A DNA stretch of 33,303 bases from Aquificota bacterium (lineage in GTDB: Bacteria > Thermosulfidibacterota > Thermosulfidibacteria > Thermosulfidibacterales > B14-G1): positions 1-33,303 of the forward strand of contig WFSI01000044.1 in the NCBI GenBank assembly GCA_015486105.1, read 5' to 3'. Under the pieces are notes generated by a model. The model ran no database searches and was not told where the DNA came from. It saw nothing but the letters and a program-made list of their open reading frames with translations. Below, one piece after another: positions 4,278-22,149 of this stretch. Positions within the stretch are counted from its first letter, which is position 1; every line of letters begins with the position of its first letter. The translations under genes and the position numbers were made by a program.

Positions 4278-6353
4278 ATGACAAAAACGCTGCTCTTTGA
4301 GATAGGAACAGAAGAAATACCCGCGGGTTTCATGATCCCCGCCCTCTCGTTCATGGAGGGATTTATAAAAAAGACCTTCGCAGAAAACCGCATAGAGCAT
4401 GGAAAGATCTATACATACGGTACCCCACGCCGCTTCACCATCCTGGTAGAAAATGTCTCCGAAACCCAGCGGGACAAGGTGGAGGAGATCATGGGCCCCC
4501 CCGCCAGTGTTGCCTTTGACCAAGATGGAAATCTAACCAAAGCCGCTTCAGGCTTTGCCAAAGGCCAGGGGGTGAGCGTAGAAGCCCTGAAGGTGAAGGA
4601 AACCCCCAAAGGATCCTATATCTATGTGGTTAAAGAGGAGAGGGGAGGGAAAACGGCTGATCTTCTCCCCAACACCTTAGAAAAATTGGTTCGATCCATC
4701 CCTTTTAGAAAATCCATGAGATGGGGAAACAGGGATATACGATTCGCCCGGCCCATCCACTGGTTCATGGTCCTATTTGGAGGGGAAGTGATAGATCTTG
4801 AGATAGAAGGTATAAAGAGCAGCTCCATCACCTACGGACACCGTTTCATGGCCCCCCACCCAATAGAAGTGAAAAACCCAAAAAACTATCTAAATACTAT
4901 GAAGGAAGGACAGGTAATAGCCGATCACAGGGCCCGAAAGAATATTATATGGGATCAGGTTCAGAAGGAGGCCTCCTCAGTAGGCGGGTTACCTCAAAGG
5001 GACGAAGACCTGCTGGACGAAGTGAACTTTTTGGTAGAGTATCCTGTGGCCACCTGTGGCTCCTTCGACCCTGAATTCCTGGAACTACCCTCTGAGGTGC
5101 TCACCACTACCATGAAAGAACACCAGAAGTACTTTCCTGTCTTCGATAAAGGGGGAAAACTCATGCACCACTTCGTAGTAGTAAACAACATGCTCAGCCC
5201 CGACATGGAGGTGATCACTCAGGGAAACGAGAGGGTTCTCCGGGCCCGTCTGGCTGATGCTCGCTTTTTCTTCCAAGAAGACAGAAAAGTGCCCCTCATA
5301 GAAATGTTCGAGAAACTCCGAGATGTAGTCTTCCAGGAAAAACTGGGCACTTCATATGAAAAGGTGATGCGTTTCCGGGAGCTGGCAGGACTCTGCGCAG
5401 ATCAAGTAGCCCCCGATAAGAAAGAACTGGTAGACCGCACCGCCCTTTTGGCCAAGGCCGATCTGGAGAGTCAAATGGTCTACGAGTTTCCTGAACTCCA
5501 GGGCATCATGGGCCGGGAATACGCCAGGATTCAGGGTGAGCCGGAAGAGGTCTCATTAGGCATATACGAACATTACCTACCCCGTTTTGCCGGAGACAAA
5601 CTGCCTTCTACTGTGACAGGAGCCTTGGTGGGCATTGCCGACAGGATAGATTCCATCGTGGGTTGCTTCGGCATCGGTCTTATACCCACAGGCTCTGAAG
5701 ACCCTTACGGAATTCGCAGAGACACCTTGGGGATGATCCACGTCATTCTCCATAAGGGCTTCCGCTTCTCCCTGGGAGAGCTCATAGATAAATCCCTGGA
5801 GCTACTGACTGACAAATTGGAACGGGAACCAGAACAGGTGAAAGCCGATGTCCTCAACTTCTTACGCCAGAGGCTTTACCATCTGTGGGTTTCGGAAGAA
5901 TTCCGCCAAGACCTGGCAGAGGCCGCTCTTTCCGCTGGATTCGACGATTTAGTAGCAGCCAAGAAGCGCCTGGAGGCCCTCCAAGAATTCAGCCAAGACC
6001 CCCCTTTCGAAGCCCTTATGACCACCTTCAAGAGAGTGGTAAATATCCTTCCCAAGGGCTTTACCCAGAAAAAAGTGGACCCTGACCTTATGAAGCAGAA
6101 AGAAGAGAAGGACCTTTATGAGGCCCTCATCCAGCTGGAGGGGAAAGTGAAAGATCTGGTACACCATGAAAACTACCTGGAGGCCCTCAAGACCATCGCC
6201 ACCCTGAAGGAGAGGGTGGACGCCTTCTTCGATGGGGTATTAGTCATGGCCCAAGAGGAAAAAGTGAAAAACAACCGCCTCTCCCTCCTCAAAAGGATAT
6301 CCAACCTCTTCATGGACTTGGCAGATCTATCTAAGGTAGTAGTAGGTAAATAA
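4278..6353 (+). CDS. glyS: Glycyl-tRNA synthetase beta subunit
   Basis: The 691-residue protein is a full-length beta subunit of the bacterial alpha2beta2 glycyl-tRNA synthetase, which charges tRNA-Gly. It opens with LLFEIGTEEIPAGF, the family hallmark. It also contains TPRRFT, MRWGNRDIRFARPIHW, the HQKYFPVF block and a C-terminal anticodon-binding region of the DALR type. The ATG is preceded by AGGAGG with a five-base gap. The alpha subunit gene glyQ, normally directly upstream, is absent; its place is taken by the oxidoreductase alpha subunit. A long perfect hairpin follows the stop codon, and ppdK lies beyond. Confidence 0.95.
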   Translation: MTKTLLFEIGTEEIPAGFMIPALSFMEGFIKKTFAENRIEHGKIYTYGTPRRFTILVENVSETQRDKVEEIMGPPASVAFDQDGNLTKAASGFAKGQGVSVEALKVKETPKGSYIYVVKEERGGKTADLLPNTLEKLVRSIPFRKSMRWGNRDIRFARPIHWFMVLFGGEVIDLEIEGIKSSSITYGHRFMAPHPIEVKNPKNYLNTMKEGQVIADHRARKNIIWDQVQKEASSVGGLPQRDEDLLDEVNFLVEYPVATCGSFDPEFLELPSEVLTTTMKEHQKYFPVFDKGGKLMHHFVVVNNMLSPDMEVITQGNERVLRARLADARFFFQEDRKVPLIEMFEKLRDVVFQEKLGTSYEKVMRFRELAGLCADQVAPDKKELVDRTALLAKADLESQMVYEFPELQGIMGREYARIQGEPEEVSLGIYEHYLPRFAGDKLPSTVTGALVGIADRIDSIVGCFGIGLIPTGSEDPYGIRRDTLGMIHVILHKGFRFSLGELIDKSLELLTDKLEREPEQVKADVLNFLRQRLYHLWVSEEFRQDLAEAALSAGFDDLVAAKKRLEALQEFSQDPPFEALMTTFKRVVNILPKGFTQKKVDPDLMKQKEEKDLYEALIQLEGKVKDLVHHENYLEALKTIATLKERVDAFFDGVLVMAQEEKVKNNRLSLLKRISNLFMDLADLSKVVVGK

Positions 6354-14436: not shown

Positions 14437-15471
14437 TCACAGCTCTATCTGGATATCCCTCAACTCCTCAGCAGCCACCTCAGGGGGCGTAGGGTTGATA
14501 TAGAAACCTGTGCCCCACTCAAAACCCGCAATCTTAGTGAGACGAGGCACCAGCTCCAAATGCCAGTGATAATCGTTCTCAATAGTCCCCCAGTAATGGG
14601 GCTTCCCTGGCCTGGGAGTGAGAGAGGGGCAGGTATGAAGAACAAAGTTATACGGGGGATCATTAAGGGTAAGCTTTATTCTGAGGAGCATGTCCTTCAT
14701 GGCCTGGGCCAGGACCAAAAGATCATCTTCAGACAAACAGGCAAAATCATGGTTGTGCCTCATGGGAAAAAGCCATGTCTCAAAGGGGAAAGAAGAGGCA
14801 AAGGGTGTCCATAACATATAATTGCCATCAGCCTTCACCACCCTCTTGCCTATGGCCAACTCTTGCTTAATGATATCGCAGAAGATACACCGCTCCTTCT
14901 TGAGATAGTGCTCCTGGGCCGCCCTCAGCTCCTGAATCACCACAGAAGGGGTGACAGGGGTGGCGATGATCTGGCTATGGGAATGGGAAATAGACGCTCC
15001 CGCCGCTGCCCGATGATTCTTGAAAACCAAGATATAACGAAAGCGCTTATCCCGCCTCAAATCCCTGATCCTTTCCCTGTAAGCCAACAAAACATCCCTG
15101 ATCTCCTCTACGGATAGATCACCAAGGGAACGGTCATGATCAGGGTTCTCAATGACCACCTCATGGGCCCCTATGCCTGTCATCCTATCAAAGAGACCTA
15201 CCCCCTCCCTCTGCAATTCCCCCTCCACCCTAAGGGCAGGAAATTTGTTGGGGGTCACCCTCACCCTCCAACCTGAAGTATCAGGGGCAGAACCTGGGGG
15301 TCTGATGGCAAAGACTTCAGGGGGGGTCCTATCCTCGCTGCCATAACAGAAAGGACAAACATGGAGGTGCTTCTCTTCTTCAGGGATCTGATAATCCTTA
15401 GGCCTCCTAGCTCGTTCCACAGCAATAATGACAGACCTCTGTCTAACAGGATCAATCCTCAGCTCCGGCAT
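14437..15471 (-). CDS. galT: Galactose-1-phosphate uridylyltransferase
   Basis: The 344-residue protein belongs to the HIT superfamily GalT branch, which swaps UMP between UDP-glucose and galactose-1-phosphate through a uridylyl-histidine. It shows the zinc-type pair CPFC (about residue 40), VTPNKFPAL, EVVIENPDHDRSL and FKNHRAAAGASISHSHSQI. In the last, the second His of H-S-H is expected to be the nucleophile (HPH in E. coli). A second half has CIFCDI, FPFETWLFPMRHNHDF and NDYHWHLELVPRL. Some proteins of this type act as ADP-glucose or other hexose-1-phosphate nucleotidyl transferases, so the sugar is not certain. It starts 11 bases after the GH57 gene stop and is the last gene of a sugar/glucan operon. 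Confidence 0.9.
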   Translation of the reverse strand: MPELRIDPVRQRSVIIAVERARRPKDYQIPEEEKHLHVCPFCYGSEDRTPPEVFAIRPPGSAPDTSGWRVRVTPNKFPALRVEGELQREGVGLFDRMTGIGAHEVVIENPDHDRSLGDLSVEEIRDVLLAYRERIRDLRRDKRFRYILVFKNHRAAAGASISHSHSQIIATPVTPSVVIQELRAAQEHYLKKERCIFCDIIKQELAIGKRVVKADGNYMLWTPFASSFPFETWLFPMRHNHDFACLSEDDLLVLAQAMKDMLLRIKLTLNDPPYNFVLHTCPSLTPRPGKPHYWGTIENDYHWHLELVPRLTKIAGFEWGTGFYINPTPPEVAAEELRDIQIEL

Positions 15472-15482
15472 ATCTTCACCTC

Positions 15483-17459
15483 CTATTCCTGGAAGAGACG
15501 AAAGGCCCTCTCTCCTTGGGCCCCCATGATAAACATAAAACCCGTACCCTGGTATATACTGTCAAAGCCCCCCTCAGACTGGGAAAGGGTAAAGAAAGGC
15601 ACCTGCCAAAGTCGAACCCTTCCCTCTACCTCCAACATAACAGGGGAGGAAAGGGAAGGATCCACACCCCTCACCACTTCCACATCCCCCCAATCCCTAA
15701 CCCTGGTGGCAGCTATGGATTCTCCCGAAACCTCTACTCGAGCCTCCTGGGCCCAGGGAAAATGAAGATTTATCTCTACCCCCAAGGGAAAACCACCAAC
15801 AAAAGACCATTGGTAAAGGACCTCCAGGCCTTTACCTAAAAGATGGTAACCCTTCTCCAACCACCCTTCCTCCCCTTCCCACCTCCAGGTAAAGGGCCCA
15901 TCCCCCACAAGGGAATAACCCTGAAGGGCCAAAAGGCGAAGGGCGTATCCGGGATCCCTCTCCCAATCTGCTATAGAACTCTGAGGCTCAAGGATACGAT
16001 CTAGAAAAGAATAGCGGGGCATGACATCGTATATCACCTCCCCAGAAGGAGGGCTTTTGGCCTGCTCATGAATGCTAAGGGTACCCCCTTCCCCTCCATG
16101 GGACTCCATGCCCCTATGATAATGCTCAAATCGCCGAGCCAATGTATCGGTAATGTTTACTCTACCTTCTCTAAAACTCAGCTCCACCAATGAGGCCCCA
16201 CGGAGAGGCTTAACCACTGCAAGACACTCTTTATTAGACATAACCACCTCTTCAAAACCGTCCGCATCCAGATCCATCACCCATGAGCCTTCAAGATTCA
16301 TCCCTGCCAGATCCTCTGCCTCCAGTAGGGAGCGATACACAGAGCGCCTAAGGTGGGGAAGATACACCCCACCAAAGATACCGTGCCAATAAGGATCATT
16401 ACACTGGGCCCTGTACAACGCCTTCTTCGCCTCTTCCCCTGCCTGGACCAGCCTTTTGCTAACCCAAACCATTCTCTTGTGCATGTGATTGGCTTCAGGG
16501 TACTTCACCAGAAAGTTCCTCCAAATGCCCCCCCTAACATAGGGCCGATACCTCTCCCACTCACCCCGGGCCTTCAAATCCTCCACCAGACCATGAAACT
16601 CTGAGGCCTGAAAAGGAGGTAGACTCCATTCCCCCATCTCGAAATAGGAGGCCGTGGGAAGATAAACCCTTCCCTTGGGAGGATGGGTTTCCATGAATCC
16701 AGAGAAGCTAAGGGTATTCAACCACGGAGCCCCCTCCAGAGCTTCCAAAAATCTCTCCAACCATCCCTTCCCATAAACCCAATCATGGGTACCCGGCCAG
16801 ACCCCAAACTTCTCTGCATCATCATAGAGAATAGCCCCAGGCCCAGGGCACTGGCCCAAATAGTCCATCACTTGCTCCACAGGCCTGAAAGGCACGATAT
16901 AACGAAGCCTCTCGCTGATGGGAAAGATAGCTAAAGTCTCCCCTCCCTCTTCGGTGAGATAATAGCCCCCCAACTCCTCCTCCTTCATCCCCGCGCACAA
17001 GAAATGATAGTCGTCCACCACCACATATCTCATCTCAGCCTCTATGAGTTGGGGAAGGATCTGAGGTTCCCAGACCCTTTCCGTAAGCCAGAGACCTCTG
17101 GGAGTAACCCCCCACCGTTTTTTAACATATGCCCTGGCCATCTCTATCTGCCCCAACCTGTCATCAGGAGGGATAGCCGCCAGAACAGGTTCGTAGAAAC
17201 CACTGATCTGAATCTCCACCTGATCCCTATCCACCATTTCTCCTACCCAGTCCAGAAACCAGGGCCTTTCCCTCTCTATCCACTCCCATAGAGGCCCGGT
17301 GTAATGAAGAGAAAAAGAGAAATGGGGATGACCCCTCACCACCTCCATAAAAGGCCTGTAAGCCTTTTCAAAAGCCTCCTCCATCACCCAGGGAAAGTTG
17401 CCCTGAGGTTGGTGACCGTGGACCCCAAAGAGGAAAGAAACCTCAGTCTCCCTTGTCAC
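15483..17459 (-). CDS. Glycoside hydrolase family 57, 4-alpha-glucanotransferase/alpha-amylase type
   Basis: The 658-residue protein matches the length and layout of the Thermococcus litoralis 4-alpha-glucanotransferase: a (beta/alpha)7 barrel with HGHQPQGNF near the N-terminus, then a beta-rich C-terminal domain (about 400-658, DUF1925/1926 type). The nucleophile Glu127 is in GLWLTERVWEP, and the acid/base Asp lies in YDDAEKFGVWPG (about residue 214). It should rearrange alpha-1,4-glucans such as glycogen or maltodextrin in the cytoplasm; no signal peptide is visible. Its start overlaps the preceding fusion gene by 17 bases, and galT follows 11 bases later, so it is translationally coupled within an operon. 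Transferase versus hydrolase activity cannot be settled by sequence reading alone. Confidence 0.9.
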   Translation of the reverse strand: MTRETEVSFLFGVHGHQPQGNFPWVMEEAFEKAYRPFMEVVRGHPHFSFSLHYTGPLWEWIERERPWFLDWVGEMVDRDQVEIQISGFYEPVLAAIPPDDRLGQIEMARAYVKKRWGVTPRGLWLTERVWEPQILPQLIEAEMRYVVVDDYHFLCAGMKEEELGGYYLTEEGGETLAIFPISERLRYIVPFRPVEQVMDYLGQCPGPGAILYDDAEKFGVWPGTHDWVYGKGWLERFLEALEGAPWLNTLSFSGFMETHPPKGRVYLPTASYFEMGEWSLPPFQASEFHGLVEDLKARGEWERYRPYVRGGIWRNFLVKYPEANHMHKRMVWVSKRLVQAGEEAKKALYRAQCNDPYWHGIFGGVYLPHLRRSVYRSLLEAEDLAGMNLEGSWVMDLDADGFEEVVMSNKECLAVVKPLRGASLVELSFREGRVNITDTLARRFEHYHRGMESHGGEGGTLSIHEQAKSPPSGEVIYDVMPRYSFLDRILEPQSSIADWERDPGYALRLLALQGYSLVGDGPFTWRWEGEEGWLEKGYHLLGKGLEVLYQWSFVGGFPLGVEINLHFPWAQEARVEVSGESIAATRVRDWGDVEVVRGVDPSLSSPVMLEVEGRVRLWQVPFFTLSQSEGGFDSIYQGTGFMFIMGAQGERAFRLFQE

Positions 17460-19965
17460 CCGAGCCCCCTTTCTTCCATCCCTCCAGCAGAAACTGGTAA
17501 CTGTCCAGCAGCTCTATGGCCTCTGCCTCCCCCTGAGCCTCGGCGTACAGGTGGAAGAGGGATCTCACCTGATCAGGGATCAGCAGAATCCAAGCTCCAG
17601 AAGGGAAAAAGATCTTGATACCATCTACGAAAGAAGCCTCTTTATCGGCAGCATCTTGGCTAAGGCGCCTCATGATAGTTCCCTTCAACTCCCAGGGGCA
17701 GGGCACCTCCCTATGAAGAAAGGTGCTGAAGGGTAGCATTCCCCTGGCCTGGCCCAAAGAGAGTTTCCCTCTGGCCATCATCTCCAAAGTCTTGGCTAAG
17801 GCGAAGAGGGCATCAAAGACATAGTGAAAGGCAGGAAAAACGAATCCCCCTCCAAGGGAAGCCCCCATGACCACCTTTCCTTTCCGACAGGCCTCAGTCA
17901 AGCTTCTGGGACCATGGGGAACCCGGTAAAGGGAGAATCCCTTCCTCACGGCCGCCTCCTCTAAGACAGAAGGAGCAGCCACAGGAACCACCAAAGTACC
18001 AGGGGAATGTGTGGCCACCACCAGAGAAGACATGCCCATAAGGGCCTCCGTACCCTGGTAAACCCTCCCCACCTCGTCCACCAGAATGAGCTCTTCCCCT
18101 GAAGGAGATATCCTGAACCCCCCTTGAGCCCCCAAGGCCACCACAATCTTAGATAGGCCCTCTAAAGATTTCGCCACGCTCTTAACTTCGTTGATAGCCC
18201 GTTCTTCCAAATAGGCATTGATTCCCACTACATCGCATCCCAGCTCCCCCAGCATCTCTGGTAATAGGGTACTAGCAGGACCATGGGCGAAATCTACCAC
18301 TATACGAAAACGGGCCTCCTTTATAGCTCCCCTATCCAATGATTTTAAAAAACCTTCCCGGTAAAAATCTACCACCTTGGGGATCTCAGATATTCTCCCT
18401 GGCTCAGAGGGATGGACCCTGCGGAAGTCTTCCCTGGCAAAGATGCGCTCTATACCCTTCTCCTGAGACGTAGATATGCTCAACCCTTCCGTGTCATAGA
18501 AACAGATCTCCGTCACAGAAGGAGTCTCCCGAGACTGGCGAAAAACTACACCTCCCACCTCACCAAAGGACTGGAGTTTGTACCTCAAAACAGGCTCTGG
18601 GACAAGCCTTAGATCCTTCACATGAATACCCGCCGAAAGGACACCACCTATGAAAGCCCTTTTGAGCATCCGAGAAGCCCGGAGAGAATCCCTGCCCGTC
18701 ATAATAGAGGCATTTTTAGGAAGAGTAGAACCATAAGCCACCCCCAATTTGGCCACAAACTCCGGGGTGAGATCCATGTTGGTGATACCAGTCACCATGG
18801 CACTTTCAAAGAGCCTCTTCTTCCACTTCTCTCCCCAAATGAGATTGTCCGTGAGGATAGCCCCTTCCTCCAAGACCTTGTTGGGCCAGATCATTACCCC
18901 TTCCCTCACCAGGGCCCCTTTCCCCACATCACAACCTTCGGCTACCACGGACCCCTTCTCTACTCGGGCCGCTGACCCCACCTTCACGTTGTTGCAAACC
19001 ACGGACCCTCTTACCTGGGCCTCATACCCCACCAATACATTGTCCCAGACCACGCCATCTATCACCCGGGCACGGGAAGCCAAGGAACAATTGTTGCCCA
19101 GCACGCAGTTCTTTAAAAAGGCCCCATCCCCAATACGGGTATTGTTGCCCAAAACAACAGTCCCCTCAAAACGCACCCCTTCCCCTATCTGGACCTCATA
19201 CCCCACCCTGACATCCCGGCCCACCAGATCCAGCTTGCTCCCAGGAATCTCTACCCTCACCATCCCGTCAAAAATGTCATAATGGGCTTGGCGATAGGAT
19301 TCGGGGTCTCCAATGTCCCGCCAGTAGTTCCTGCCGTGATAGCCAAAAAGGGGCTTACCCTTACCTAAGAGCTTAGGGAAAAGGTCCTTACTAAAGTCAA
19401 AGTCCCCATCCTCGGGAATCCCTTCCAGGACCTGGGGCTCCAACATATAGATCCCTGTATTTATAGTATCACTGAAGACCTCCCCCCAGCCTGGCTTCTC
19501 TAAGAACTTCACTATGCGGCCCTTCTTGTCTGTAATCACCACTCCAAACTGGAGAGGATTCACAACGGAAACCAAGCCCAAGGTTACCCAAGCCTCCTTC
19601 TCCCTGTGAAAATCCGCCAAGGCTGCAAGATCCATATCAGTAAGGAGATCCCCCGATATCACCAAAAAAGGGGCATCCAGATAGCTCTGGGCAGCCTTTA
19701 CCGCTCCTGCCGTCCCTAAATCCTTGGTAGGAGTAATATAGGCAATCCTTACCCCCCAATCCGAACCATCTCCAAAGTAGTCTTTGATCACCTGGGGCTG
19801 AAAGTAAAGGAGAACCACCAAATTCGTAAAACCGTGTCCTCTCAGGAGGCGAAGGATATGCTCCATGATAGGCAGATTCACCAAAGGGAGCATAGGCTTG
19901 GGTAAAGAAGAGGTGAGAGGACGGATTCGAGTACCAAATCCCCCCGCCATGATAACGGCTTTCAT
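17443..19965 (-). CDS. Nucleotidyltransferase-phosphomannomutase fusion with degenerate mutase domain
   Basis: This 840-residue protein has three parts. Residues 1-235 are a sugar-1-phosphate nucleotidyltransferase (MAGGFGTRIRPLT, PKPMLPLVN, GDLLTD, INTGIYML). Residues 240-375 are a left-handed beta-helix of hexapeptide repeats (VGYEVQIGEGVRFEGTVVLG and similar). Residues 380-825 are a phosphohexomutase-like region. The family is annotated as mannose-1-phosphate guanylyltransferase/phosphomannomutase. In the mutase part the phosphoserine loop reads TGRDSLRASR (423-432) rather than TxSHNP. The metal loop usually written DPDGDR reads GFRISPSGEE (616-625), losing the aspartates. So the mutase half is probably inactive, sensory or altered. 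It begins one base after the receiver gene and overlaps GH57. Confidence 0.88.
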   Translation of the reverse strand: MKAVIMAGGFGTRIRPLTSSLPKPMLPLVNLPIMEHILRLLRGHGFTNLVVLLYFQPQVIKDYFGDGSDWGVRIAYITPTKDLGTAGAVKAAQSYLDAPFLVISGDLLTDMDLAALADFHREKEAWVTLGLVSVVNPLQFGVVITDKKGRIVKFLEKPGWGEVFSDTINTGIYMLEPQVLEGIPEDGDFDFSKDLFPKLLGKGKPLFGYHGRNYWRDIGDPESYRQAHYDIFDGMVRVEIPGSKLDLVGRDVRVGYEVQIGEGVRFEGTVVLGNNTRIGDGAFLKNCVLGNNCSLASRARVIDGVVWDNVLVGYEAQVRGSVVCNNVKVGSAARVEKGSVVAEGCDVGKGALVREGVMIWPNKVLEEGAILTDNLIWGEKWKKRLFESAMVTGITNMDLTPEFVAKLGVAYGSTLPKNASIMTGRDSLRASRMLKRAFIGGVLSAGIHVKDLRLVPEPVLRYKLQSFGEVGGVVFRQSRETPSVTEICFYDTEGLSISTSQEKGIERIFAREDFRRVHPSEPGRISEIPKVVDFYREGFLKSLDRGAIKEARFRIVVDFAHGPASTLLPEMLGELGCDVVGINAYLEERAINEVKSVAKSLEGLSKIVVALGAQGGFRISPSGEELILVDEVGRVYQGTEALMGMSSLVVATHSPGTLVVPVAAPSVLEEAAVRKGFSLYRVPHGPRSLTEACRKGKVVMGASLGGGFVFPAFHYVFDALFALAKTLEMMARGKLSLGQARGMLPFSTFLHREVPCPWELKGTIMRRLSQDAADKEASFVDGIKIFFPSGAWILLIPDQVRSLFHLYAEAQGEAEAIELLDSYQFLLEGWKKGGSGDKGD

Positions 19966-19966
19966 G

Positions 19967-20344
19967 CTACTCGCTCCCGTAGTACTTCTCCAAAAGCCTC
20001 TTTACCTCTTCCTTTAATTCAGTGAGATCCGCAGACTTAATGACATAGGCATCAGCCAACCAACTGGAAAAATCGTCCTGATAGGAAGAATAGGCAGAGC
20101 AGAGAATAACCGGCAGATTCTTCTTCTCCTTCACAATGTGCTGGAGGGCCTCCAAACCACTCATCTCCTTCATCCTAATATCCAGAATCACCAGATCCAC
20201 GGGCTCCTTTTCCAGGATCTCTAAAGCATCCTCCCCAGAAGAAGCCAAGAGCACCTGGTACCCCTCGTCGGTAAATTCCTGATCGTAAAGGAAGCGAATA
20301 CTCTCCTCATCGTCAACAACCAGCAACCGGCCCTTCTTATCCAT
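19967..20344 (-). CDS. Stand-alone response regulator receiver protein
   Basis: The chosen start gives a 125-residue CheY-like receiver with the full set of conserved residues: Asp11/Asp12 of the acidic pocket, phospho-acceptor Asp55 in LVILDIRM, Ser83 in VILCSAYSS, and Lys103 in YVIKSAD. It has no output domain, so it must act through protein contacts or as a phosphorelay intermediate. An upstream in-frame extension (to 20425) is rejected because ATG 20344 has TAGGGGGT as ribosome-binding site and matches the family start. The gene follows the small Cys protein by ten bases and the kinase by about 115, and precedes the nucleotidyltransferase fusion by one base. The histidine kinase is the obvious partner. 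Confidence 0.92.
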   Translation of the reverse strand: MDKKGRLLVVDDEESIRFLYDQEFTDEGYQVLLASSGEDALEILEKEPVDLVILDIRMKEMSGLEALQHIVKEKKNLPVILCSAYSSYQDDFSSWLADAYVIKSADLTELKEEVKRLLEKYYGSE

Positions 20345-20354
20345 GATATACCCC

Positions 20355-20561
20355 CTATTGGGTCTTTTTGAATGCCTTCCAGCAACCCTGTCTCCAAAGG
20401 CAGCCCTCTTCACCGCATGTCTCAACCCTGGAGGTACCGAAACAGGGAATATTGCCCTCCCTATCCTGGATCTCTCTGATGAGCTGGGTCTTCCTCTTTC
20501 TCCCAGGAACGATCCCCATCTCCCTGGCCATGGTTTTTACTTCCATTACTATCATTGTCAT
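20355..20561 (-). CDS. Small Cys-containing protein with SAP/Rho-N-like helical domain, overlapping the kinase gene
   Basis: A 68-residue protein starts at ATG 20561, six bases after AAGGAGG inside the 3' end of the histidine kinase gene (101-base overlap), and ends ten bases before the receiver start. Residues 6-36 (EVKTMAREMGIVPGRKRKTQ then LIREIQDREGN) resemble the helix-loop-helix fold of SAP/Rho N-terminal domains, which bind nucleic acid in other proteins. A Cys motif follows: Cys40, Cys49, Cys54 and Cys60 (CFGT-x6-C-x4-CLWR-x2-C), suited to an Fe-S cluster or zinc. I recall similar small proteins in Desulfobacterota with the same layout but no known function. Its place between kinase and receiver suggests a role in that pathway; this is inference. 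An alternative start is the fifth codon downstream, at 20546. Confidence 0.8.
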   Translation of the reverse strand: MTMIVMEVKTMAREMGIVPGRKRKTQLIREIQDREGNIPCFGTSRVETCGEEGCLWRQGCWKAFKKTQ

Positions 20562-22149
20562 TGTCCACCTCCTTTTCATCCCATTCCTTCAAAGGCAGCC
20601 ATACCTTCACAAGGGTGCCCTTTTGCAAAGGCTGAATTTCCAACCTGCCCCCATACTCAGCAATGATGTTTTTGCATATAGGCAAACCCATACCCGTCCC
20701 ACCCTTTGTGCTAAAGAAGGGCTGCGTCACCTTATCCAGTATCTCCTGGGAAATACCCTCACCCTGGTCTTCCACGGTGAGAAGGGCCTCTTCCTTTTCC
20801 TTCTGCAAAGAGACCTTTATCTCTCCACCATAAGGCATGGCCTCCATGGCATTTTTCAAAAAGTTCCATAAGAGGATACGAATGTGCTTAGGATCTACAA
20901 GTACCATGAGAGGTCCCTCATCTAAGAATAGGGAAAAAGTATGCTTCCCATTGCGGAGAATCTCTTCCACCTCCTCTAAGGCCTTTCTCACCACAGTACC
21001 CAAATCTAACAGGGTTCTTGAGGGACAAATGGAGTCAGCATAGGAGATGAGATCCCCCACTAAGTCCTCTAAACGGGAGGCCTCCTCCACTATAGCCTGA
21101 AGGATCCCTTCATCAGACTTCCCAGTCTTCAGCAGGTACTTGGCCAACCCCCCTATGGCCGTAAGGGGATTCCTTATCTCATGGGCCATCTTAGACGTGA
21201 TGGTACCTACCACCCTCATCTTCTCCAGCTTAGTAAGGGAGTCATACTGGCACTTCATCTCCTCGGAACAACGTTCCAACTCTCTCACCTTTGTCTCCAA
21301 TCGCCGATAGAGACCTGCCCTCTCCACAGCCAGGGCGGCCTGAGCTGCGAAAGTATCCATGGCCCTTACATCCACAGGGTGAAAGGGCTCCGCCGAGATC
21401 ACGTTGTCTACCAAAATACACCCCAAAAGGCGATCTCCACTCCAAAGGGGTAAAACCAAAAGGTCCTTCACCCTTAATAGATCCAAAAGGCTGGCCAGCT
21501 CGGGGCACGAACTCCTCTCCACCATAAAAGCCTTTCGTACATTCAAGAGCCTCACCAGAGGGTCCCTATCATCTAAGGGAAAGACCAGCTTCTCCAGCAA
21601 AAACCAAAGCCTCTCCCTATCCCGATAAAGGGTCCCCTTCCTTTTCAAGAGGTCATGCACAGAGCAGTTCTCCGAATTGATGCATCCCCAGATTTCCATA
21701 GCCTCTTGAGGGTCCTTAGGACCAATAGCACAGTAACCCTTGAGGAAACCCTCTTCCGCTAAGAGAATCCAGGCCCTGTTGTATCCCAACCCATCCCCAG
21801 CGGTGAGATAAGTAAGGATAGTGTGGATAATCTCATCCAGATTGGTGGAGTCCCTAATTAGGCCGGCCACTTCACTCAAGGCCTTGAGTCTATTTTTGCC
21901 ATGCTCCAGTCTATCCCTCAGGAACTGGACCCCGGTCTGATCATCCTCCAGCACCTGAGGCAACAGCTCCATAGCCATTCTATGAGGCGCCTCACAACTC
22001 ACCAGGTCCATCATAAGCTTGGGGCACTCCAAGCATTTGGCCTTCATTCTGGCCCTCTGATCGTGAAGGAGATGGGCCTCCCCCTCAGGATCTATATTGG
22101 GACACTCCCCCTCCTCCAAAGACGCCTTTAACCAGCACTTGTCCCCCAT
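20461..22149 (-). CDS. Soluble sensor histidine kinase with Cys-rich N-terminus and GAF domain
   Basis: The 562-residue kinase has no membrane segment. Residues 5-52 hold five cysteines (5, 16, 39, 42, 52), a possible metal or Fe-S site. A GAF-like sensor domain spans about 90-280. A short coiled coil leads to the HisKA domain with phospho-His323 in MAHEIRNPLTAIGG. The ATPase domain has the N box (NFLKNAMEAM, 429-438), G1 (DQGEGIS) and G2 (GGTGMGL, 483-489). The fold should end near residue 520. The last 42 residues are a hydrophilic Asp/Asn/Lys-rich tail encoded by DNA that also encodes the small Cys protein. The cytoplasmic location and Cys cluster suggest sensing of redox state, metal or gas; the ligand is unknown. 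The receiver downstream is the likely target. Confidence 0.92.
   Translation of the reverse strand: MGDKCWLKASLEEGECPNIDPEGEAHLLHDQRARMKAKCLECPKLMMDLVSCEAPHRMAMELLPQVLEDDQTGVQFLRDRLEHGKNRLKALSEVAGLIRDSTNLDEIIHTILTYLTAGDGLGYNRAWILLAEEGFLKGYCAIGPKDPQEAMEIWGCINSENCSVHDLLKRKGTLYRDRERLWFLLEKLVFPLDDRDPLVRLLNVRKAFMVERSSCPELASLLDLLRVKDLLVLPLWSGDRLLGCILVDNVISAEPFHPVDVRAMDTFAAQAALAVERAGLYRRLETKVRELERCSEEMKCQYDSLTKLEKMRVVGTITSKMAHEIRNPLTAIGGLAKYLLKTGKSDEGILQAIVEEASRLEDLVGDLISYADSICPSRTLLDLGTVVRKALEEVEEILRNGKHTFSLFLDEGPLMVLVDPKHIRILLWNFLKNAMEAMPYGGEIKVSLQKEKEEALLTVEDQGEGISQEILDKVTQPFFSTKGGTGMGLPICKNIIAEYGGRLEIQPLQKGTLVKVWLPLKEWDEKEVDNDNDSNGSKNHGQGDGDRSWEKEEDPAHQRDPG

Follow-up and report, generated by a model that had tools for sequence, protein, structure and literature searches.

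A small gene that overlaps the 3' end of a histidine kinase gene in the window, i.e., the whole 33,303-nt stretch of DNA analyzed here, is real as judged from its homologues and codon pattern, and its product belongs to a widespread, uncurated protein family combining a SAP/Rho_N-like head with a four-cysteine (Cys4) module (Table 1). Tentatively, and with a likelihood that we place slightly below even, we propose that this protein binds metal and regulates alpha-glucan operons as an accessory factor. The gene is part of an operon with the order DUF47, phosphate permease, kinase, small gene, receiver, nucleotidyltransferase/phosphomannomutase (NTP/PMM) fusion, GH57 and GalT-like.

Table 1. Features of the small gene, its window operon and the kinase fusions of the family.
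Feature	Position	Strand	Basis
Small SAP/Rho_N-Cys4 protein gene	20355..20561	-	Conserved family, codon-position bias
AAGGAGG ribosome-binding site	20568..20574	-	Sequence; 6-nt spacer to ATG 20561
Helix-extension-helix (SAP/Rho_N-like) head, residues 3-37	20451..20555	-	Family Rho_N/SAP matches, AlphaFold2 helices, Foldseek
Four-cysteine module EGNIPCFGT-x5-C-x4-CLWR-x2-C, residues 35-61	20379..20459	-	Cys conservation in 140 sequences
101-nt overlap, kinase 3' end / small gene	20461..20561	-	Sequence; not present in G001, G003
GAF-HisKA-HATPase histidine kinase	20461..22149	-	Pfam
Kinase C-terminal tail, last 41 residues	20464..20586	-	G001 alignment stops at residue 521
Stand-alone receiver (response regulator lacking an output domain)	19967..20344	-	Pfam Response_reg 5e-25
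Nucleotidyltransferase + phosphomannomutase/phosphoglucomutase fusion	17443..19965	-	Pfam; operon member across order
GH57 alpha-amylase/4-alpha-glucanotransferase	15483..17459	-	Pfam
GalT-like sugar-1-phosphate uridylyltransferase	14437..15471	-	Pfam
Kinase-SAP-Cys4 fusion	L097:4812-6245	-	
Kinase-SAP-Cys4 fusion	L098:4812-6239	-	
Kinase-SAP-Cys4 fusion	L099:3783-5192	+	
Kinase-SAP-Cys4 fusions	L181-L186		

According to the sequence and the ORF list, the small ORF comprises 207 nt (68 codons) and opens with the ATG at 20561, and its stop is followed by a 10-nt gap to the start of the receiver gene at 20344. All elements described in the sequence-only reading, namely AAGGAGG with its 6-nt spacer, the ATG, the cysteine motif CX8CX4CX5C (C40, C49, C54 and C60), the 101-nt overlap and this gap, were found in the sequence. 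The product of 68 aa and 7.9 kDa is basic, with a predicted pI of 9.4. In most homologues the start aligns with Met3 of the window protein (ATG at 20555), and the true start is, by this alignment, 20561 or 20555, of which 20561 is preferred because of the spacing to the ribosome-binding site. Over the whole small frame, the changes at the first, second and third codon positions numbered 11, 12 and 28 as compared to G003, a genome from another genus of the family, and 11, 12 and 39 as compared to a Desulfofervidaceae homologue, i.e., an excess at the third position. In the overlapped part the corresponding counts were 7, 5 and 16 for G003 and 6, 7 and 21 for the Desulfofervidaceae homologue, whereas no third-position excess was found as compared to the congener G001 (11, 11 and 12). 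With the exception of this last comparison, the small frame is thus favored over the kinase frame in the overlap, and the claim of a hidden gene is borne out by this pattern together with the homologues.

A search of 60 genomes revealed homologues in G001 (59% identity), in G003 (63%) and in the distant G058, and a genome-collection scan added eight more, the best being two Desulfofervidaceae MAGs with 70% and 66% identity and the others including Geobacter, Oryzomonas, Desulfuromonadaceae and Omnitrophota. The presence of homologues elsewhere, on which the earlier proposal of a gene had been made to depend, is thereby established at 59-70% identity in sister genomes and Desulfofervidaceae. 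Profile A1, built on 12 sequences including that of the window, gave 112.6 bits with the window protein, a score to be read with this inclusion in mind. In a sample of 395 genomes from the phylum containing Geobacter it matched 123, a single genome having up to four copies, and in a domain-wide sample it matched 16 of 386 genomes. The 140 unique sequences keep the four cysteines at 100, 99, 100 and 100%, in accordance with the motif recognized earlier, Gln32 at 100%, Glu35 at 99% and W or F at position 56 at 99%, values that are partly circular because the search profile contains these residues. The family is defined by a helix-extension-helix head followed by EGN-x2-CF-x(n)-C-x(3-5)-C-x-[WF]-x3-C, and the window protein has both. 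No match to the window protein was obtained in NCBIfam and none above the cut-off in Pfam, no credible sequence relative was present in the PDB, and PHROG matches were weak. Literature searches for SAP/Rho_N with Geobacter, Desulfovibrio or histidine kinase yielded no paper on the SAP-Cys4 family; the SAP/Rho_N domain type itself is already known, and it is the combined family that is without a curated model or paper in the searches made. Two matches were located on plasmids and two on viral contigs, and L117 and L118, two IMG/VR viral contigs, encode family members. A phage origin was considered and rejected; annotated phages gave no match, and the matches in viral contigs numbered two. The member L116:4903-5154 (+) carries two tandem SAP-like heads ahead of one Cys4 module and is located downstream of an apparent ribonucleotide reductase gene.

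The helical region that had been likened to SAP/Rho-N is supported by the Pfam matches of family members, fold support being weak. Rho_N (PF07498) scored 14.9 bits on the window protein, which is below the gathering cut-off of 24.9 and does not confer membership, while the relative L109 just passes it with 25.0 bits. At E values up to 1, Rho_N matched nine of the 12 members (best E 1e-5) and SAP (PF02037) four of the 12 (best E 0.0043). An AlphaFold2 model based on nine sequences places helices at residues 5-14, 24-35 and 58-67 with a moderate mean pLDDT of 67 and about 80 in the head; in Foldseek the closest PDB structure was 1h1j, a SAP domain (E 2.3), with the SAP entries Tho1, MANF/CDNF and FAN1 lower in the list, none of them significant. 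The protein is taken to be cytosolic, and its head, together with the overall basic charge, would probably bind nucleic acid. The C-terminal CX8CX4CX5C module resembles zinc proteins in holding four conserved ligands in one compact unit, and it is predicted to bind one metal ion, probably zinc rather than an Fe-S cluster. No match to any Fe-S family was obtained in Pfam or NCBIfam, and no Pfam match to the WhiB profile was seen up to E 1 in any of the 12 members.

Comparison with the sister genomes revealed how the overlap may have arisen. In G001 the kinase ends with ...VWLPMKGEVSSHQRL-stop, 12 nt ahead of the small-gene ATG and in the same frame, and in G003 it ends about 200 nt upstream of the small gene; the last 41 residues of the window kinase have no counterpart in the G001 kinase. 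Given this arrangement in G001, the tail of the window kinase is read-through into the small gene, and from these alignments the overlap is a local read-through of the kinase frame. The sequence-only reading had regarded this tail as odd and as fitting a constraint by the overlapping gene: the tail does stem from the overlap, but the overlap is local and not ancestral. An ancestral overlap under dual constraint was rejected, as neither G001 nor G003 has the overlap and the kinase of G001 terminates ahead of the small gene. The kinase tail of G002, a genome without the small gene, is partly similar to that of the window, and the region between kinase and receiver in G002 (L215:6351-6565) may contain a decayed small-gene remnant, for which a shuffle p of about 0.01 is suggestive only. 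At its other end, upstream of the GAF domain, the window kinase is rich in cysteines (22000-22149 (-); C5, C15, CLECPKL and C52). Prodigal permits same-strand overlaps of at most 60 bp (PMC2848648), a limit that the 101-bp overlap exceeds, which is in line with the expectation that gene callers may drop or mis-start the gene. For this reason the first permitted start beside the full kinase is Met15 (59-nt overlap, counted by hand), which would remove the first helix of the small protein; a conserved gene would therefore be blocked from full-length calling next to the full kinase by the limit of a standard gene finder.

The operon order of the window is kept in G001 and, as far as the contig end, in G003. 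In G002, G007 and G008 the kinase, receiver, NTP/PMM and GH57 genes are also found, but the receiver gene follows the kinase gene and the small gene does not lie between them; GalT closes the operon in G002 and G008, and a contig end interrupts it in G007. In G005 the order is receiver-NTP/PMM-GH57-GalT with the nearest kinase homologue on a different contig, and the assemblies G005 to G008 contain no copy of the small gene. As G002, G007 and G008 show, the small gene does not accompany every kinase-receiver operon and is not an obligate partner of the pair; rather, it would have been added to, or lost from, a complete system. The suggestion that the pair lacks an output or sensor partner and that this gene could supply it is, as worded, not supported in view of these three genomes and of the lack of enrichment of two-component neighbors reported below.

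Placement beside alpha-glucan genes recurs in the family. In five Desulfofervidaceae-type loci (L077, L078, L080, L114 and L115) the small gene is located directly upstream of glgA with a 4-nt overlap or a 1-nt gap, and in G058, G069 and G070, which belong to another, distant phylum, it precedes galT-glgA and thus adjoins a homologue of the GalT-like gene of the window operon. Furthermore, in L007 the genes ahead of it are those of a GH57 branching enzyme, a glycosyltransferase and a GH57 protein, in L079 it comes after glgC, it stands ahead of glgC in L132 and L138, and it is present twice in G109, next to glgA and next to glgC, the latter copy being interrupted by TAG. These amount to five to six separate placements. 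In L132 and L138 the order is STAS-like gene, small gene, STAS-like gene, glgC and universal stress protein gene (STAS recognized by eye), which hints at anti-sigma-antagonist-type control near glycogen synthesis. Adjacent same-strand genes in 110 fetched loci were compared to genes more than 2.2 kb away: alpha-glucan genes accounted for 12 of 141 adjacent and 5 of 527 distant genes, and, once the loci were dereplicated, for 5 of 126 and 2 of 485 (odds ratio about 10, p = 0.005), the p values being optimistic since the categories were fixed only after the first loci had been seen. Two-component genes were not enriched in the same 110 loci (8 of 141 vs 18 of 527, p = 0.16; dereplicated p = 0.37; odds ratio 1.3-1.7), and a general linkage of the family to such genes was rejected because this test was not significant. 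Outside the 20-sequence clade of the window, most members are found in unrelated contexts (ndk, hsp20, purC, transporters). In a tree of 97 sequences, based on a short alignment and with modest support, the window, G001 and G003 proteins nest inside the glgA-linked group. The simplest history appears to be a transfer from a Desulfofervidaceae-like donor, in which the gene is directly upstream of glgA, into an alpha-glucan operon already present in the family; insertion between the existing histidine kinase and receiver would have coupled its expression to both.

A different association was observed in a single order, of which nine genomes (G459, G281, G345, G872, G859, G886, G847, G874 and G865) have the SAP-Cys4 module fused C-terminally to a histidine kinase, after the HATPase domain. 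Where complete, these kinases are of PAS-HisKA-HATPase type, the G847 frame as read being without the PAS part; Pfam was run on two of them and the other seven were recognized by matching sequence. The fusions provide independent evidence of a module able to serve a kinase, and they keep the kinase link credible. In L103, a locus of an unrelated genome and separate from the window operon, a stand-alone receiver resembling that of the window (5216-5635 (+)) begins 99 nt after a small-gene homologue, and in L082 a hybrid kinase ends just ahead of the small gene.

Taken together, these observations lead us to prefer, with due reserve, the role in alpha-glucan operons: the small protein would be made together with the alpha-glucan and sugar-nucleotide genes and would act on them, either via the DNA or mRNA of the target genes or by docking on a partner protein. 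This is in line with the conserved family with its kept cysteines, Gln32 and Glu35, the SAP/Rho_N signal by Pfam and, weakly, by fold, the glgA, galT-glgA, glgC and GH57 placements with their enrichment, and the nesting in the tree. On the other hand, the neighbor categories are post hoc and the mixed contexts outside the 20-sequence clade would allow a more general role; moreover, the SAP match of the window protein is below the Pfam cut-off, the structural matches and model confidence are as modest as described, and the cysteine figures are in part shaped by the bias of the search profile. A rather unlikely alternative is a kinase accessory module: docked on the receiver or close to the ATPase end of the kinase, the small protein would pass a metal or redox signal to the pair, as the split form of the fusions. 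Kinases ending in a complete SAP-Cys4 module in nine genomes, the G001 kinase and small gene lying in one frame a stop and 12 nt apart, and the L103 and L082 arrangements argue for it, whereas the operons of G002, G007 and G008, the two-component test and the Desulfofervidaceae copies, which have no kinase in the fetched neighborhood, argue against it.

We consider it improbable that the protein works in the manner of WhiB-like regulators, with an Fe-S cluster on the four cysteines and a SAP head that binds DNA when the state of the cluster changes. The invariant cysteines, with an aromatic residue and Arg within the last CX5C, would suit such a redox or iron sensor, as would the fact that most matches come from the phylum including Geobacter and sulfate reducers, many members of which are anaerobes; however, no Fe-S family matched and the cysteine spacing fits zinc modules equally well. 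Lower still we rate a mobile, context-neutral gene with a general housekeeping role, the kinase and glucan neighbors being incidental. Its patchy distribution, the presence of as many as four copies in a genome, the mixed contexts, the plasmid and viral-contig matches and the possible G002 remnant point that way, but its tight stop-start coupling to glgA and galT and the repeated independent placement beside glucan genes speak against it. That the ORF arose by chance in the kinase tail is hardly conceivable: despite the facts that it overlaps a longer ORF and that no curated small-protein model matches, this candidate is refuted by the homologues and their conservation, the family profile and the codon pattern. 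Returning to the alpha-glucan role, a bolder extension, which we regard as speculative and unlikely to hold in full, is that a portable metal-binding SAP-Cys4 module constitutes a new regulator class of bacterial alpha-glucan storage, wired to phospho-signaling by a kinase-overlapping gene or a C-terminal fusion. In any case, a widespread family for which no curated model was found in Pfam or NCBIfam and which is recurrently coupled to glgA, glgC and galT opens a testable route to how sulfate reducers and related bacteria control their glycogen-type storage.

Among known systems, MgrB with PhoQ (PMC10576120) and the DUF1127 protein with PhoR (PMC12501420) are, like the window protein, shorter than 70 aa and tied to a histidine kinase; the window protein differs from them in kind by description only, its kinase adjacency is not conserved and its interaction is only putative. 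The kinase-SAP-Cys4 fusions contain the same module right after the HATPase domain, but as one polypeptide, whereas in the window it is encoded by a separate overlapping gene beside a GAF kinase. GlgS/ScoR of Escherichia coli is likewise a small protein connected with glycogen, a likeness of theme. The nearest Pfam and Foldseek neighbors are Rho_N and SAP, with which the small protein shares the helix-extension-helix of about 35 residues; in contrast to these domains, it occurs without a Rho or SAP host protein and adds an invariant Cys4 module, head and module together making up almost the whole protein.
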